Origin: Spongiibacter marinus
GTDB taxonomy: Bacteria; Pseudomonadota; Gammaproteobacteria; Pseudomonadales; Spongiibacteraceae
DNA length: 64,000 bases
NCBI RefSeq assembly: GCF_016906995.1
Contig: NZ_JAFBBD010000003.1
Span: forward strand, 62,001 to 126,000
Reading direction: 5' to 3'
The notes beneath the pieces are model-generated. The model ran no database searches, was not told the DNA's origin, and saw only the letters and a program-made list of their open reading frames with translations. The position numbers were made by a program, and so were the translations under genes. Position 1 is the stretch's first letter; every line of letters begins with the position of its first letter. Positions 27,922-34,247 of this stretch are shown here, in pieces.

Positions 27922-29199
27922 CTAGTGGTGCCGTTTTGCAATTTCCACAATGCGCTCACGTAAATCGACTTGCGCTTCCAGCCTGCGCAGCAACCAGTAG
28001 CCGCCACTGAGAGAACGAGCGACGAAGGCCAGGTCAGGAACCGGCTTAAATTGCCCCCACACCGGCAGTGCGCGCCGCGCGATCGCCCGGGCGTCGGTAA
28101 TAAAACTCGGATCTGCGAAATCGAATGGCGGCTCTACAATCATCCGCTCATGCAAAAACTCGGTGCTTTCCGTGTATGCGCGCTCCAGGCCAGCAGAGGG
28201 CTGACGGCCCGGCTTGGCCAAACTTCCCATCTCACCCAGCGATTGATGCAGCGCCGCCATGTTGCGCTCAACCACCGCACGCACTTGCTCGGCAATCAGC
28301 CGTTGGTCTTTGCCATTAACGCGCTTCACGCAACCAAAATCGAAAACAACAATGCTGCCGTCTTCGCGGAAACTGTAGTTACCGGGGTGCGGATCGGCGT
28401 GGACAATACCGTGATCAAATATCTGCGCCACCATCCAGTCGACATAGCGCTCACCGATGCGATCGCGCACAGCCTGAGGCCAGCGTTGCGCCACCTCGAT
28501 GCCGCTACCGCTGACAAACTCCGTCACTACCACCGATGGACTGCAGAGCTCAGTGACGACATCGGGAACGATGATGCCATCGCGATTTGGCAAGCCGGCA
28601 AAAATTTCTAAATGTTCTCGCTCGCGCTGGTAATCCATCTCCTCGGCCATCCGCTCGCGAACCTCTTCCAACACGGCCTTCAGGCTGTCGCCATCAAAGG
28701 GCAAAATGCCCGCCATCCGTAGCATTCTGCCGAGATTACTAATATCAGCGTCCATCGCCGCAGCAACACTGGGGTAGCGTACTTTTACCGCCACCTTTCG
28801 CCCGTCACGAAGTGTTGCCACATGCACCTGACCAATCGAGGCACTGGCCAGTGGCGCGTGTTCAATCTCTGCAATCAGTTGCCACTGATGTGCTGACCAC
28901 TGTCCATCAAGCACTTCGCGGATGCGCTCCCAGGGCAACGGCGCGGCGTCGGCCTGCAGTCGCGCCAACTGCTTAGACAACTCGGGCGGCAGCACATCGT
29001 GATACTGGGATGCTAGCTGGCCAAGTTTCATTGCCGCGCCTTTAAGCTCCCCCAGGGTTTCGTACCAGTCGCCCCCTACTCGCGCCCAGTGTGCCCCCGC
29101 ATCTGATCGGGTAACGGTGCGCACTATGCCGCGCCCTAAGGTACGCGCCCCCGCCGCCAGGATGCGCCGCCCGCGCTTTGTAGAATTCGGCAATGCCAT
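27922..29199 (-). CDS. ABC1/UbiB-family atypical kinase (AarF domain)
   Basis: The 425-residue protein has the ABC1 kinase-like core. The KxGQ motif is in AAMKLGQLASQ, ASIGQVH is the nucleotide loop characteristic of the family, VAVKVRYP holds the conserved lysine, and HADPHPGN and VVFDFG are the catalytic and metal loops. UbiB-family proteins support ubiquinone synthesis or lipid handling. This copy lacks the two C-terminal membrane helices of UbiB itself, so it is a paralogue of the AarF/ADCK type. ATG 29199 is chosen because GGAGGG lies just upstream; the frame is open to 29253. It is divergent from the FAN1 gene. Confidence 0.87.
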   Translation of the reverse strand: MALPNSTKRGRRILAAGARTLGRGIVRTVTRSDAGAHWARVGGDWYETLGELKGAAMKLGQLASQYHDVLPPELSKQLARLQADAAPLPWERIREVLDGQWSAHQWQLIAEIEHAPLASASIGQVHVATLRDGRKVAVKVRYPSVAAAMDADISNLGRMLRMAGILPFDGDSLKAVLEEVRERMAEEMDYQREREHLEIFAGLPNRDGIIVPDVVTELCSPSVVVTEFVSGSGIEVAQRWPQAVRDRIGERYVDWMVAQIFDHGIVHADPHPGNYSFREDGSIVVFDFGCVKRVNGKDQRLIAEQVRAVVERNMAALHQSLGEMGSLAKPGRQPSAGLERAYTESTEFLHERMIVEPPFDFADPSFITDARAIARRALPVWGQFKPVPDLAFVARSLSGGYWLLRRLEAQVDLRERIVEIAKRHH

Positions 29200-29380
29200 T
29201 TCCCTCCGATATAGGTTGGCGATATCCCAACGCCGATGAAATTCACCCGCCACGGCGGTTGATCACATCACTACTGAGCCATCTGTTACGGTATACGATG
29301 TTACAGCGCGTATTTGGATTACGGTTTATTTAATCGCCCCACAGGCGCGCGGCTGCATTCCCGCCCGCCCCGGCCGATCA

Positions 29381-29411
29381 CTGTACACCCGTACAGTACA
29401 AAATGTATGAT
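29381..29411 (+). promoter_or_regulatory. LexA-type SOS operator overlapping a sigma-70 promoter
   Basis: CTGTACACCCGTACAG (29381-29396) matches the LexA consensus CTGT-N8-ACAG at every fixed position and is almost a perfect palindrome. A -10-like TATGAT lies at 29406-29411, and TGTACA at 29382-29387 can serve as -35 with an 18-base spacer. The operator therefore covers the -35 element, the classic position for repression. It lies about 97 bases before the FAN1 start codon and 180 bases from the divergent ABC1 kinase start. Confidence 0.8.
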
Positions 29412-29492
29412 GAGCGAAGACCGATCGACGCAGTATCGCCAGTCGCTTTCCTCTAACTGCTAAGACCCCTGCTTCATTCACAAACACCCTCT

Positions 29493-31184
29493 ATGAAAAC
29501 AACGCCCTCGGATAAACGCCATCACAACGCAGAAATTCAGCGCGCCTCGCTGAACGATCCGCTGTACTACCTGGCGAATCTGGAAACGGTTATTCACTGG
29601 GTACGCAGCCACCACAGTGACTTATTGGAGACGGCAGAACGATCGATACTCGACCAGTTTATCGCGCTACCGAAGCACAGCCGCGCATTACTCGCCAGAC
29701 TAAGCATGCGCAGTGGCACACTATTTCGTGGCGACGCGCTGCGCTATCGAGAGATTCCGTCTATCGATGACGCGCTACGGCCACTGGTCGACGCTGGCTG
29801 GGTGGCGCTAAACCCGACATTAACGGCCAACGACGTTCACAAGCTGTGCCGCCGAGCGGAATTACTGCAATTACTGACCAGCCGCGGCGTTGACTGCCCA
29901 CGAACACTGCGCAAAAGCGAGATGCTGGCGCCGCTGCAAACCCTGGTTGCCAATCACTCCGCACAAACCATGCAGCAGTGGTGGCCCGAGGGCGCTATTA
30001 ACACGATCAGCCTACTTCGCGACGCGCTATTGCAGCGAATTCGATTGATGTTCTTCGGCAATCTCTACCAAGACTGGTCGGAATTTGTGCTCGCCGAGCT
30101 GGGCTATCAGCGCTACGAGGCAGTGAGTTTCACGCCACAATCGCGCGCGTTTTCAGACCGCAATGACGTCGACGATTACCTCGACATCTACCACTGTCAA
30201 ACAGCCCTGGCAGAGGGCGTTCCAGTCAATGAGCTTCAGGTGCCTGGCCCCAGCACAAATAACTGGCTGGAACACCGCCGACAAAAACTACTCTTTCAGC
30301 TCGCCCATCACGCTGAGCGCTGCGGTGATATCGATACCGCACTACAGTTCTACCGCGACAACCCCTTAGAAGAAGCACTGGTCAGGCAGTTTCGCGTGTT
30401 GGAAAAATCCACACCCTTACCCGAGCAACTGCTACCGCGTTTGGATGCGTCACTTCACAACGTGCAGCGCCCGGAAACTCGACTGCACTTACAACGGATT
30501 CAACATCGCCTTCGGCGCAAGGCCGGTCAGCCCAGCCCGACGCGCCGCGTGCAGCCTATTCCCAGCCAGACCCTGCTATTGCGTAAATCTGAACACAGCG
30601 TGGAAATTGCAACGCTAACCGCGCTAACCGAAAATAGCGCGCTTACCGGCTTCTATAGCGAAAACACCTTATTCACTGGGCTTTTTGGATTGCTGTTCTG
30701 GCCGGTGTTATTTGAACCACTGCCCGGCGCCTTCTTTCATCCTTTTCAGGCCGGCCCCGCCGACTTGTTTCGAGCCGATTTTGTCACTCGCCGGCAAACA
30801 CTAATCGACCAGCGTTTACGCTTGCTCGAAACCAAGGCCTATCAGCAGGAAATATGGAAAATCTGGCGGGCCAAGCACGGTATTTCCTGCACATTGATAC
30901 ACTGGCCAGCGATGAGCGAAGCGCTTGTCCAAGCGGCGCTACGCTGTATTCCTGCCGAGCATTTGCGCATCGTTTTCCGCCACCTACTCAGCGATCTTCG
31001 CCACCACCGGCGCGGTATGCCGGATCTGGTGATATTCGATACCGCCCAATGCTGCTATCAACTGATTGAAGTCAAAGGCCCCGGCGACCGCCTGCAAGAC
31101 CATCAGCGCCTGTGGATTGAAACCATGCTTCAGGCCGGTTTGCCCGTATCCGTTGCAGAAGTCGATTGGGAGAGCAAATCATGA
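29493..31184 (+). CDS. FAN1-type VRR-NUC domain nuclease
   Basis: The 563-residue protein is a bacterial FAN1 homologue, structure-specific 5' flap/interstrand-crosslink nuclease family. The C-terminal VRR_NUC domain keeps the PD-(D/E)XK residues D511 (GMPDLVIFD), E526 and K528 (LIEVKGPGDRL, next to Q532-like helix). The upstream HPFQAGPADLFRADF tract is conserved with the human enzyme. The N-terminal 350 residues are helical, as expected for the SAP-like and TPR-like DNA-binding regions. Length equals the Pseudomonas FAN1 form. Its stop overlaps the helicase start in ATGA. A LexA-type operator precedes it, suggesting SOS induction. Confidence 0.92.
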   Translation: MKTTPSDKRHHNAEIQRASLNDPLYYLANLETVIHWVRSHHSDLLETAERSILDQFIALPKHSRALLARLSMRSGTLFRGDALRYREIPSIDDALRPLVDAGWVALNPTLTANDVHKLCRRAELLQLLTSRGVDCPRTLRKSEMLAPLQTLVANHSAQTMQQWWPEGAINTISLLRDALLQRIRLMFFGNLYQDWSEFVLAELGYQRYEAVSFTPQSRAFSDRNDVDDYLDIYHCQTALAEGVPVNELQVPGPSTNNWLEHRRQKLLFQLAHHAERCGDIDTALQFYRDNPLEEALVRQFRVLEKSTPLPEQLLPRLDASLHNVQRPETRLHLQRIQHRLRRKAGQPSPTRRVQPIPSQTLLLRKSEHSVEIATLTALTENSALTGFYSENTLFTGLFGLLFWPVLFEPLPGAFFHPFQAGPADLFRADFVTRRQTLIDQRLRLLETKAYQQEIWKIWRAKHGISCTLIHWPAMSEALVQAALRCIPAEHLRIVFRHLLSDLRHHRRGMPDLVIFDTAQCCYQLIEVKGPGDRLQDHQRLWIETMLQAGLPVSVAEVDWESKS

Positions 31185-33469
31185 TCGAGGTATCGGTGCG
31201 CAACCTCTGCGAATTTGCCGCGCGAAGCGGCAGCCTGGAGTTTCGCTACACCCCCGCACCGAGCGCCGATGAGGGCATTATCGGCCACCTCACCGTTCAA
31301 CAACGCCGGCCCGATCCCTATGTCGCGGAATACCGGTTAACCGGGGAGTGCTCGGGCATCGCGATAAGCGGGCGCGTAGACGGCTACTACGCGAACCCCG
31401 ACAAATGCTATCTGGAGGAAATTAAAACGCATCGGGGAAATATCAATCGCATTGGACCCGGGCGGCGAGCCTTACACTGGGCGCAGCTAAAAGTGTACGG
31501 CGCTCTACTGTGCATGCGCGTCAAACGCGACAATATCGACCTGCGGCTCACCTACTTTGAAGTCCGCGACGAACAGGAAACGCAGGACACGCAAACCTTC
31601 GAGGCCACATTACTGACCCAGTTTTTAACCACACTTTGCGACCGCTATCGGCACTGGGCGGAAAGTGAAACCGCACACCGCCGCGCGCGGGACGAGGCCC
31701 TCGCGGCACTGCGTTTCCCCTACCCGGACTTTCGCACCGGCCAACGGGCACTGTCCGAAAACGTGTACAAGGCCGCAAGGCGCGACACGCCACTGTTACT
31801 CCAAGCGCCGACCGGTATCGGAAAAACCGTCGGTGTTTTATTCCCGGCGATAAAGGCTATGCCGGCCAGTGATCTCGATCGCGTGTTTTTTCTAAGTAAT
31901 CGCAATACCGGGCGTCAGCTCGGCTTAGATGGCCTTCGCAGCATCCTCGACCACCAAGACACCACAGTGCCCCTGCGATTCGTGGAGCTCTCTGCCAAAG
32001 AAGCCAGCTGTGACCATCCAGACAAAGCCTGTCACGGCGATTCCTGCCCCCTGGCCAATGGTTTTTTCGACAGGCTTAGCGCAGCGCGTCAGCAGGCGAC
32101 CCAGACGCGCTGTCTCGACCAAACAACGCTGCGCCGTATTGCCGCAGAGCACGACATTTGCCGCTACTTTCTCGCCCAGGAAATGGCGCGCTGGTCAGAT
32201 ATTGTGGTGGGCGATGTGAATCATTATTTCGATCAATTCGCCCTCCTATACAGCTTGGCCCAGCAACATTTATGGCGAGTAATGCCGGTGGTTGACGAAG
32301 CCCACAACCTTATCGACCGGGCCCGCGGCATGTACAGCATGGAGCTTTCCGAGGCCGAGTTACTTTACACCGTGCGCAAGGTTCCGGCACCGCTACTCAA
32401 ACCGCTCTCTGAGTTGGAAACCGCCTGGGCCGCGTTGATTCGCCCCTATCTTGAGGACAGCGAGTTCGAACTTCACCACCAATACTATCTCGACGAGGTG
32501 CCAGAGGCGCTCAATAGCGCGCTGTACAGTGTCATTGCCGCCATTACCGACTACCTCACTGACCACCCAGCCGCCGCCGATGTACAACAGGTATTATTCA
32601 CCGCCCTCGCCTTTCTGCGCCTGGCTGACAGCTTCGCAGACCACTCCCTGTGTACGCTCAGCTTTGAAACCGTAAGTGGTAGTCTTCAAGCGAAGCCGGG
32701 AAGTGGCAAACTGTGTATCGACAACCTTATTCCCGCCGACCATTTGCGGCCTCGCTTTGACGCCGCCGCCTGCACCGTGTTGTTCTCCGCCACCCTGTCC
32801 CCTCCTCAGTACCACCAAGACCTGCTGGGACTGCCCGCCGATACGGTTTTTAAGGATGTGGAGAGCCCATTTTCTCGCGAGCAAATAGACCTGAGACTCA
32901 TCACCTCAATCAACACGCGTCAGCAGCAGCGCCAGCACTCACTCGCGCCAATTTGCGACCGTATCGTGCAACAAATGACCGCAATCCCTGGCAACTACCT
33001 GGTGTATGTCAGCAGTTTTGACTACCTAAACGCCCTGTTTGAATACCTTCGGGAGCACGCCCCCACATTGCGGCTATTGCGCCAACGCCCAGGCATGCCT
33101 CCCACTGAAAGAGACAGTTTTATCACTGAAGCCAGCGATGCCACCCCCAGTGTCGGGTTCGCGGTATTAGGCGGGGTATTTGGCGAGGGCATAGATTTAC
33201 CGGGCGAACGGCTGATCGGCGTGTTCGTTGCCACCCTCGGCCTTCCTCCCCACAACGACCTGTACGAAGTTCTCCGGCAACGGCTTGAAGCGCGCTACGG
33301 CCGCGGTTATGACTACACCTACCTCTACCCCGGCATACAAAAAGTGGTACAAGCGGCAGGGAGATTAATTCGCACCGAGGAGGATCGCGGCGTTATCGAG
33401 TTAATCGATGATCGCTTTAGCCGGCCCGCAATCCGGGCATTACTGCCCAAGTGGTGGGGCCTGCGTTGA
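31181..33469 (+). CDS. XPD/DinG-type Fe-S DNA helicase with N-terminal PD-(D/E)XK nuclease-like domain
   Basis: The 762-residue protein has two parts. Residues 1-110 look like a Cas4/RecB-type nuclease fold: D67 (GRVDGYY), E80-I-K82 (YLEEIKTHRG) and a downstream Q102-x3-Y106. Residues 180-762 form a superfamily 2 Rad3/XPD helicase with Walker A APTGIGKT (209-216), DEAH box at 372-375, four candidate cluster cysteines (C277, C284, C289, C327), and the C-terminal motifs GGVFGEGIDLPG and AAGRLIRTEEDRG. It is predicted to unwind DNA 5' to 3' and perhaps cut. ATG 31181 is used (GGGAG upstream; the frame is open from a TTG at 31166). It is translationally coupled to the FAN1 gene. Confidence 0.9.
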   Translation: MIEVSVRNLCEFAARSGSLEFRYTPAPSADEGIIGHLTVQQRRPDPYVAEYRLTGECSGIAISGRVDGYYANPDKCYLEEIKTHRGNINRIGPGRRALHWAQLKVYGALLCMRVKRDNIDLRLTYFEVRDEQETQDTQTFEATLLTQFLTTLCDRYRHWAESETAHRRARDEALAALRFPYPDFRTGQRALSENVYKAARRDTPLLLQAPTGIGKTVGVLFPAIKAMPASDLDRVFFLSNRNTGRQLGLDGLRSILDHQDTTVPLRFVELSAKEASCDHPDKACHGDSCPLANGFFDRLSAARQQATQTRCLDQTTLRRIAAEHDICRYFLAQEMARWSDIVVGDVNHYFDQFALLYSLAQQHLWRVMPVVDEAHNLIDRARGMYSMELSEAELLYTVRKVPAPLLKPLSELETAWAALIRPYLEDSEFELHHQYYLDEVPEALNSALYSVIAAITDYLTDHPAAADVQQVLFTALAFLRLADSFADHSLCTLSFETVSGSLQAKPGSGKLCIDNLIPADHLRPRFDAAACTVLFSATLSPPQYHQDLLGLPADTVFKDVESPFSREQIDLRLITSINTRQQQRQHSLAPICDRIVQQMTAIPGNYLVYVSSFDYLNALFEYLREHAPTLRLLRQRPGMPPTERDSFITEASDATPSVGFAVLGGVFGEGIDLPGERLIGVFVATLGLPPHNDLYEVLRQRLEARYGRGYDYTYLYPGIQKVVQAAGRLIRTEEDRGVIELIDDRFSRPAIRALLPKWWGLR

Positions 33470-33481
33470 CCGCCATGAATA

Positions 33482-34126
33482 CTACGCTGTGAAAGAATCG
33501 GGAAAGTCCTTCAGCCGGGCATTATTGAGCTGGGGATCAACCGTCCTGGCTAACAGCGGAACACTTGCGCCAGACACAGCCGCCAGCACGTCTTTTGGCG
33601 CAAGCCGGTGGTCGAGCCAGTGGTTTATTTGCTCGCCCGATAGCATAACCGGCATACGCGGGTGGTAGCGGGTAAAATTGCTATCGGCAGGCTGCGTGAG
33701 CACTGATACCGACAGTAATTCCCCGCCCCTCTCCTCCCAGATAGCCGCTAGCGCCAGCGGCTTTGGGTCACCGGTAAAATAATAGGGCTGTTTCTTACCC
33801 GCTACCGTCTGCCATTCCATGAATGCTGACGCTGGAACAATCCCACGCCGGTATTTGAGCGGCCCCTTGTAGGCCCTGCTTGTCTGTACCGACTCGATCC
33901 GGGCGTTGAACATTGCAAACTTCGTGCTTGGCCCGTCTGACCAACTTGGCACCAACCACCAACGCATAGGGCTGATCGTCAACTGCCCCTCTAGAAAACG
34001 TACAACAGGCACGGCCTCAGTAGGTGCCACATTGGGCAACGACGGCATTTTAAAGTCATTAAACCCCAGTGCTCTGATTAACATTTCAACCGATGCACTG
34101 TGTTCAAAAAACAGGCGACCACACAT
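33482..34126 (-). CDS. SRAP-domain protein (HMCES/YedK family), abasic-site DNA-protein crosslinker
   Basis: The 214-residue protein starts MCGRLFF, so Cys2 becomes the N-terminal catalytic residue after Met removal. It forms a thiazolidine bond with abasic sites in single-stranded DNA. The other active-site residues N74 (FNARIES), E104 (SAFMEWQ) and H155 (HPRMPVM) are all present. The frame is open to 34174, but only the ATG at 34126 places Cys at position 2, so that start is firm. It converges with the helicase gene with 12 bases between stops, placing three DNA-damage proteins together. Confidence 0.93.
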   Translation of the reverse strand: MCGRLFFEHSASVEMLIRALGFNDFKMPSLPNVAPTEAVPVVRFLEGQLTISPMRWWLVPSWSDGPSTKFAMFNARIESVQTSRAYKGPLKYRRGIVPASAFMEWQTVAGKKQPYYFTGDPKPLALAAIWEERGGELLSVSVLTQPADSNFTRYHPRMPVMLSGEQINHWLDHRLAPKDVLAAVSGASVPLLARTVDPQLNNARLKDFPDSFTA

Positions 34127-34144
34127 TAGAGCTACCCAAACAAC

Positions 34145-34172
34145 GCGGCTGCGCTCAGACAAGCACAGCCGC
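34145..34172 (-). terminator. Hairpin between the MOSC fusion gene and the SRAP gene
   Basis: The stem GCGGCTG/CAGCCGC, with three further pairs inside, lies 76 bases past the stop of the left-pointing MOSC fusion gene and 19 bases upstream of the SRAP start. There is no T-run, so termination is uncertain; it could also be an operator or a 5' leader structure. Confidence 0.4.
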
Positions 34173-34247
34173 AATTCTTAAAACACGCTTGTTGGAATCG
34201 ACAACAAGCCAGAGCGTTACTCGTCGCAACCCTACATTGACGGCAAC

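Follow-up and report, generated by a model that had tools for sequence, protein, structure and literature searches.

A FAN1 nuclease gene coupled to an EndoDinG-type helicase-nuclease gene behind a predicted LexA box in Spongiibacter marinus

The components of the locus described here, bacterial FAN1 nucleases and EndoDinG helicase-nucleases, are known already. Crystal structures and biochemistry exist for bacterial FAN1, which is reportedly able to unhook crosslinks (a result attributed to Jin, 2018); in the literature searched, as far as its available portions go, neither an in vivo role of bacterial FAN1 nor an operon or SOS context for the Pseudomonas aeruginosa protein was found. DinG and YoaA of the E. 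coli type are SF2 helicases of the Rad3/XPD type linked to damage responses, and to our knowledge both subgroups are without an N-terminal RecB-like nuclease. Eukaryotic FAN1 is paired with the Fe-S helicase FANCJ under control of the Fanconi pathway and not of LexA; we know of no FANCJ with an N-terminal RecB-type nuclease and of no linkage between the two eukaryotic genes. In the accessible text of PMC6550410, FAN1 of Arabidopsis shares one mitomycin-resistance pathway with the Fe-S helicase FANCJB, and that of PMC4103454 reports cleavage of 5' flaps by FAN1 orthologues including the one from Pseudomonas. An N-terminal PD-(D/E)XK domain followed by an Fe-S core is described for the EndoDinG subgroup (PMC11981726, in excerpts) and for Finegoldia magna DinG (PDB 9kqh); a term search of this review gave no mention of FAN1 or VRR-NUC. 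None of the literature matches listed describes a FAN1-helicase operon in bacteria or a LexA box ahead of it, as judged from titles, abstract beginnings and passages, which does not establish absence from print.

The window (the whole stretch of 64 kb that was analysed) carries on its forward strand an intact FAN1 gene of 563 amino acids (29493..31184) with the FAN1_HTH, SAP and VRR-NUC domains, the domain matches PF21315 (8.3e-29), PF18081 (3.6e-06) and PF08774 (3e-30) all lying above cut-off. The presumed active site comprises E390, D511, E526 and K528, residues which we take to be catalytic. D511 and K528 occur in 174 out of 174 aligned FAN1 loci and E526 in 173 out of 174 (loci not de-duplicated), and E390 has a frequency of 1.0. 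The FAN1-type nuclease proposed in the initial annotation is borne out. Residues 16-560 match PDB 4r89/5y7g with 382.9 bits. These entries are presumably P. aeruginosa FAN1, PA1865, which fits the citations in PMC12796719; the protein is a homologue with the same domains and presumed active-site residues. The FAN1 gene of N. salexigens is frame-broken.

The second gene (31181..33469, forward strand, 762 amino acids) overlaps FAN1 by ATGA, as had been noted before, and its product matches 9kqh over the full length with 336.9 bits, compared to a weak match of 31.7 bits to the human FANCJ chain. Its Fe-S SF2 helicase core (31721..33469) possesses Walker A (K215, T216), DEAH (372-375) and Q724, R728 and R731, and the four Fe-S cysteines C277, C284, C289 and C327 (CCCC motif) are invariant in 30 sequences. 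In front of this core lies an intact RecB/Cas4-like nuclease domain of the PD-(D/E)XK type (31181..31720, forward strand; EXO5-like as well), recognized from alignment, predicted structure and fold search, and this architecture makes the protein an EndoDinG. The catalytic-type residues H36, E50, D67, E80-x-K82 and Q102...Y106 are invariant in 28 aligned sequences; 9kqh has an alanine at the aligned position of D67. The domain is predicted with a pLDDT of 92.5 and its fold matches SSO0001, EXO5 and RecE at TM 0.48-0.54, with AddAB and Cas4 also among the best folds; SSO0001 we take to be Cas4 itself. A Pfam search of the window helicase N-terminus alone gave no match, and PDDEXK_1 matches three of the 28 family members (best 1e-05). 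The Fe-S helicase of XPD/DinG type recognized at first sight is thus present, and the view of it as a plain XPD/FANCJ analogue had overlooked the nuclease domain. Models of E. coli-type DinG and YoaA score far under cut-off on the window helicase, and it is not an orthologue of FANCJ by our comparison, although it may act like FANCJ.

The two genes tend to stay together. Related genomes had been suggested as a check, and there the helicase gene lies downstream of FAN1 in 77 out of 80 named loci, with nearly all gaps at most 80 bp (345 bp in locus L044). Among 274 genomes of the class eight contain both genes, five FAN1 only, one the helicase only and 260 neither (Fisher p = 1.6e-11, relatedness not corrected for). 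FAN1 without EndoDinG also occurs in G298, G300, G326 and G462, and EndoDinG without a FAN1 match at E 1e-15 in G127, G1219, G1237 and G1266, so that the pair is not obligate. The box is absent from three of these four solo helicase genes. In the family of genome G585, FAN1 is present in 352 out of 398 genomes. Its ten relatives among plasmid records (Vibrio five, Burkholderia four, Pseudoalteromonas one) are all predicted to be non-mobilizable and the eight listed are 1.7-3.5 Mb in size, which gives no support to a mobile-element origin.

Upstream of FAN1 we find the palindrome CTGTACACCCGTACAG (29381..29396, forward strand), a predicted LexA box of the perfect CTGT-N8-ACAG form, flanked by A and T (ACTGT...ACAGT). 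It overlaps a sigma-70-like motif match TGTACA-18-TATGAT (29382..29411, forward strand), the sole one in 29200-33700. Shuffled sequences average 2.0 such matches, so the motif by itself is not above chance, and both promoter and terminator scans of the region gave counts at or below shuffle expectation. The perfect box and its overlap with a promoter match are confirmed. The bare 16-mer match is weak evidence for a LexA site: the window contains two perfect sites, and the genome 35 compared to 25 for the reversed pattern. Because these counts are inconclusive, a matrix was trained on 26 distinct boxes upstream of lexA from 18 genomes of the same genus including the own one (one box, in L220, is doubtful). 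On both strands of the window the site at 29381 obtains the top score, 9.3 bits compared to 6.6 for the next, and in 300 segments drawn at random from the window the best score had its 99th percentile at 5.5. Nearly all lexA boxes score far higher by the same matrix (21-31). The same box type occurs upstream of lexA (twice) and of dinB in this genome. Each of the 18 genomes has two or more boxes ahead of lexA with no more than one mismatch, the CCAG variant being frequent. With regard to membership in the LexA regulon, the box fits the organism's own LexA sites and sits over a promoter match, and it is weaker than nearly all lexA boxes.

To look beyond a single genome, we counted boxes of the type CTGT-N8-(A/C)CAG with at most one mismatch at -165..+10 of FAN1. 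They occur in 53 out of 89 protein clusters (36 without), compared to 181 out of 2981 comparison windows (6%; approximately five of 89 clusters expected by chance) and to 10 out of 89 clusters for the reversed motif; this count covered loci that include the FAN1 N-terminus and at least 200 bp upstream, with the exception of L270-L285. The 100-bp bin directly ahead of FAN1 held a box in 72 (80 loci), the mean across 115 bins being 4%. All seven named betaproteobacterial loci have the pair and the box, six of them perfect, and in the genus of G772 (25 genomes) a box precedes FAN1 in 20 out of 20 loci examined. In the window's own genus the picture is mixed: absence of the palindrome from close relatives had been named as a refutation, and this is partly the case. 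A box is found in four of ten FAN1 operons (the own one, G011, G013 and G018; in N. salexigens at the same place), and the matrix gave no convincing box in the other six (G004, G007, G008, G009, G010 and G019, the last with a poorly scoring one-mismatch site at -117).

The strongest evidence for a putative LexA control comes from genomes in which the genes are apart. In 11 Pseudomonas-type genomes of this kind, a box precedes FAN1 in all 11 and the helicase gene in 10, and the FAN1 proteins are 70-98% alike, which argues that the boxes were kept over long divergence. The Burkholderia-like genome G1260, whose FAN1 DNA is, among plasmid records, nearest to Burkholderia (66-68%), has perfect boxes ahead of both genes; both designations are assignments from sequence similarity. 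Of 24 helicase genes directly behind FAN1, only four have any box match within 350 bp, at scattered positions. A perfect box together with the helicase is also present in another genome (L155), whose FAN1 is 91% identical to the 4r89 protein over the first 304 residues queried. The LexA control predicted from these comparisons is well supported by the linkage, the box in distant lineages and the boxes on both split genes, with the six same-genus operons as the part that does not fit.

For P. aeruginosa the excerpts of PMC12796719 report UV-C induction of PA1865/PA1866, with no regulator assigned. A LexA-controlled FAN1-helicase unit may be its cause. PA1865 is not among the approximately 15 genes assigned to the LexA regulon and is reported, in the material available, to be repressed by hydrogen peroxide; simple LexA control does not predict this repression, which lowers our confidence in the explanation given next.

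In our view the locus is best explained as a LexA-repressed two-gene DNA-repair operon in which FAN1 and EndoDinG unhook interstrand crosslinks, to which we assign a probability of about two in three. In the undamaged cell, transcription would be blocked by LexA bound to the box over the -35 region; upon damage, RecA filaments would provoke LexA self-cleavage, and both ATGA-coupled proteins would be produced together. FAN1 could then cut the 5' flap beside a blocked fork and trim in 5'-3' direction past the crosslink, thereby unhooking it, and the Fe-S helicase could open the duplex 5'-3', exposing a strand for its RecB/Cas4-like domain to cut or trim. We infer that LexA binds the box and the operon is induced, that the two proteins divide the work in this way, and that interstrand crosslinks are their main target, the repair role by analogy with FAN1 biochemistry and plant FAN1-FANCJ genetics. 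Of the minimal inducible crosslink-repair unit envisaged initially, the two-gene unit with a LexA-type box holds by comparison; the crosslink role is the conjectural part, and the helicase is no plain FANCJ analogue.

The most serious rival, which we consider unlikely at perhaps one part to several, shares the LexA control and sees a general unit for processing forks, flaps and double-strand ends, with interstrand crosslinks as a minor substrate. The flap cleavage cited above would suit it, as would the resemblance of the EndoDinG N-terminus to the end- and strand-processing nucleases EXO5, RecE, AddAB and Cas4. UV-C and ciprofloxacin cause mainly lesions other than interstrand crosslinks. PA1865 is reported to respond to both (PMC12796719, in part). 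The joint action of plant FAN1 and FANCJB in mitomycin resistance and the unhooking reported for bacterial FAN1 speak against this rival.

A chance occurrence of the palindrome at 29381 between divergent genes, with no SOS control here even if it exists in Pseudomonas, is rather improbable. The genome-wide site counts, the low score relative to lexA sites, the six operons and the unremarkable promoter motif would agree with chance; the top rank by the lexA-trained matrix, the flanks, the position over the promoter match, the site at the same place in N. salexigens and the recurrence of this box type ahead of FAN1 in distant lineages would not. The box also lies next to the divergent gene of an ABC1/UbiB-like kinase (27922-29253, reverse strand), and we rejected this gene as its target with little hesitation, since among the loci compared a close kinase homologue adjoins FAN1 only here and in N. 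salexigens/G011, whereas lineages that lack this neighbour still have the box ahead of FAN1. The match of PADLOC model PDLC01439 'typeIV_DinG' to the helicase core (7.6e-105) could suggest a module accessory to anti-phage defence or to CRISPR type IV-A, which is judged very unlikely given the far weaker Csf4 model (Csf4_0_IVA, 9.3e-11), the broad linkage with FAN1 and the latter's prevalence in the family of G585, and SOS boxes that suit repair.

A more far-reaching proposal, which we hold tentatively and at somewhat less than even odds, is that both proteins constitute a single SOS-induced helicase equipped with two nucleases (5'-flap and RecB/Cas4-like), which would serve Pseudomonas, Burkholderia and relatives as their dedicated machine for unhooking interstrand crosslinks. 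As an overlooked part of their SOS regulon it would run parallel to UvrABC, and it would correspond in bacteria to the FAN1-FANCJ pathway of eukaryotes.

Both the gene pair and its predicted SOS switch are found repeatedly in relatives of Pseudomonas and Burkholderia, and the unit is probably switched by damage. This predicts that the published LexA regulon of P. aeruginosa is incomplete and makes LexA a candidate regulator for the induction of PA1865-PA1866. It also suggests that the partnership of FAN1 with Fe-S helicases for crosslink repair is either ancient or has arisen more than once. The apparently SOS-controlled partnership would supply bacterial FAN1 with a partner and a switch, and with a pathway open to testing in the genetically easy Pseudomonas.

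The LexA-type box CTGTACACCCGTACAG (29381-29396) lies before the FAN1 gene (29493-31184) in the 3.57 Mb window genome (G000; window G000:C3:62001-126000) and overlaps a sigma-70-like match, TGTACA-18-TATGAT (29382-29411). This match is the sole one within 29200-33700, where a single match is no more than expected from shuffled sequence. The helicase gene (31181-33469) is joined to FAN1 by an ATGA overlap. Both the perfect palindrome over the promoter match and the gene coupling were described in the initial annotation and are confirmed here. A gene for an SOS response associated peptidase (SRAP) follows on the minus strand (33482-34174), convergent with the helicase; among the loci examined, many of them too short to reach it, it was found elsewhere only in Neomelitea salexigens and one same-genus genome (L226).

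The window FAN1 contains FAN1_HTH, SAP and VRR-NUC domains, and its residues 16-560 align with the solved Pseudomonas FAN1 (4r89, 5y7g). The presumed active-site residues D511 and K528 are conserved in 174/174 aligned loci and E526 in 173/174. Its closest named relatives, among the best 80 of 332, are from N. salexigens (98%) and Zhongshania (56%). In N. salexigens DSM 19753 (L001:5001-6708; also G011) a 19-bp tandem duplication breaks the FAN1 frame, which is either a true loss or an assembly error; the box and the helicase nevertheless agree with those of the window.

The helicase has a Rad3/XPD core, and its full-length relative is the Finegoldia magna DinG (9kqh). YoaA and DinG proper were rejected as assignments, both models scoring far below their own cut-offs. 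Residues ~1-176 form a separate domain in which Pfam gave no domain match and H36, E50, D67, E80, K82, Q102 and Y106 are invariant in 28 aligned sequences. The AlphaFold2 model of this domain (mean pLDDT 92.5; 89.6 for the full helicase) matched 9kqh best, followed by SSO0001, EXO5, Cas4, RecE, AddAB and lambda exonuclease at TM ~0.45-0.54, together with some weaker matches to unrelated folds. The same architecture was named EndoDinG in a 2025 review, which cites the endonuclease activity as unpublished data (PMC11981726); a term search of the review text returned neither FAN1 nor VRR-NUC. The PADLOC model PDLC01439 "typeIV_DinG" matches this chromosomal helicase at 7.6e-105; EndoDinG proteins may therefore be mislabelled when defence systems are annotated.

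The form of the 29381 box recurs in the window genome, twice upstream of lexA (assigned from sequence and TIGR00498) and once upstream of dinB (from sequence). In 18/18 same-genus genomes, the window genome included, lexA is preceded by two or more boxes with no more than one mismatch each, many of them ending in CCAG. With a matrix built from 26 distinct lexA-upstream sites of the genus, one of them doubtful (L220), the 29381 site ranks first in the window (9.3 bits vs 6.6 for the runner-up), and for segments drawn at random from the window (n=300) the best score stayed below 5.5 in 99%. As the site scores well under nearly all lexA boxes, its predicted LexA affinity may be moderate. Two further sites of the genome were seen: a LexA-like box, CTGTAAATACATACAG (L095:882-897; G000:C2:87581), upstream of an ORF resembling a DNA cytosine methyltransferase by eye, and a perfect CTGT-N8-ACAG core within a 42-bp inverted repeat with 19-bp arms, by eye (L094:945-986; G000:C3:386957). 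The latter precedes a small ORF, HTH-like by eye, and could be an operator, a hairpin or a mobile-element end.

The pair was sought in related genomes and found adjoining in 77/80 named loci (all but L009, L019 and L069), these being the best 80 of 332 relatives in one scan and mostly Pseudomonas. A box falls within the 100-bp bin upstream of FAN1 in 72/80, compared to a mean of 4% over 115 bins; the runner-up bin, +1600..+1699 (31/80), is the FAN1-helicase junction. We also pooled 179 loci, each including the N-terminus of FAN1 and 200 bp of sequence ahead of it. The box occurs in 123/163 near-identity and 53/89 broader clusters, compared to 353/6002 and 181/2981 comparison windows and to 13/163 and 10/89 clusters for the reversed motif; the cluster counts are not independent, as the sample leans to Pseudomonas. 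Pair and box are both present in all seven betaproteobacterial loci that carry a name (Collimonas 2, Undibacterium 2, Herminiimonas, two MAGs), and the box is perfect in six. FAN1 is present in 168/390 order genomes and in 352/398 genomes of the family of G585. Among 274 class genomes 13 carry FAN1, 9 the helicase (E 1e-30) and 8 both (Fisher p = 1.6e-11, relatedness ignored). In one family of the order (f4; L113, L135, L144, L152, L154), half of a box (ATGGATAAATGAACAG or nearly so) is conserved where FAN1 presumably starts; it may be a degenerate LexA site.

Against this stands the window's own genus. The initial annotation had named absence in close relatives as a refutation of the LexA-controlled unit, and this was partly observed: by the lexA matrix a box precedes FAN1 in four of ten FAN1-bearing genomes (the window's, G011, G013, G018) and in none of the other six (G004, G007, G008, G009, G010, G019), G019 having a one-mismatch site with a poor matrix score. 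These sequences suggest gain or loss of SOS control inside the genus.

Separated genes speak for SOS control of the pair. In 11/59 loci no helicase adjoins FAN1; these all belong to one Pseudomonas-type genus, whose closest named match is Pseudomonas sp. JUb42 (67-72%), and in 11/11 the helicase lies elsewhere in the genome. A box precedes FAN1 in 11/11. The helicase has one of its own in 10/11, between -119 and -143 relative to the start of the match, and in the remaining genome a palindrome with two mismatches occupies a similar position. Directly after FAN1 (n=24), only 4 helicases have a match within 350 bp, at scattered positions. The eleven genomes may share a single separation event; even so, their FAN1 proteins, 70-98% alike, indicate that the boxes outlasted long divergence. 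The genes are also on different contigs in G1260 (FAN1 DNA 66-68% similar to Burkholderia records), with a perfect box before each. For solo helicases (no FAN1 at E 1e-15), a perfect box was found in G1266 and none in G127, G1219 and G1237. That each gene, when apart, has a box of its own is difficult to account for without selection for SOS control of both.

FAN1 and EndoDinG are already known components; in the literature covered, which leaves some key papers outside, we found no account of an SOS-controlled FAN1-helicase pair or of its persistence when separated. The FAN1 of G772 shares 91% identity with 4r89 across the 304 residues queried, and its gene is followed ~38 bp later by the helicase and preceded by a perfect box (CTGTATGCATGAACAG); a box was present in 20/20 loci examined from this genus (25 genomes). 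PA1865 and PA1866 of P. aeruginosa are reported among UV-C-responsive genes outside known regulons, PA1865 being ciprofloxacin-induced and hydrogen peroxide-repressed (PMC12796719). We propose that PA1865-PA1866 is the FAN1-helicase operon under LexA control, PA1866 being presumably the helicase by gene numbering; the peroxide repression is not explained by this proposal.

A mechanistic model may be drawn from the 5'-flap cutting by Pseudomonas FAN1 (PMC4103454) and from the Arabidopsis fan1 fancjb double mutant, whose mitomycin sensitivity is no greater than that of either single mutant (PMC6550410). LexA would bind the box and the pair would be induced, with crosslinks as the presumed main target: the helicase would open or remodel the fork, FAN1 would unhook, and the RecB/Cas4-like N-terminal domain of the helicase would trim.
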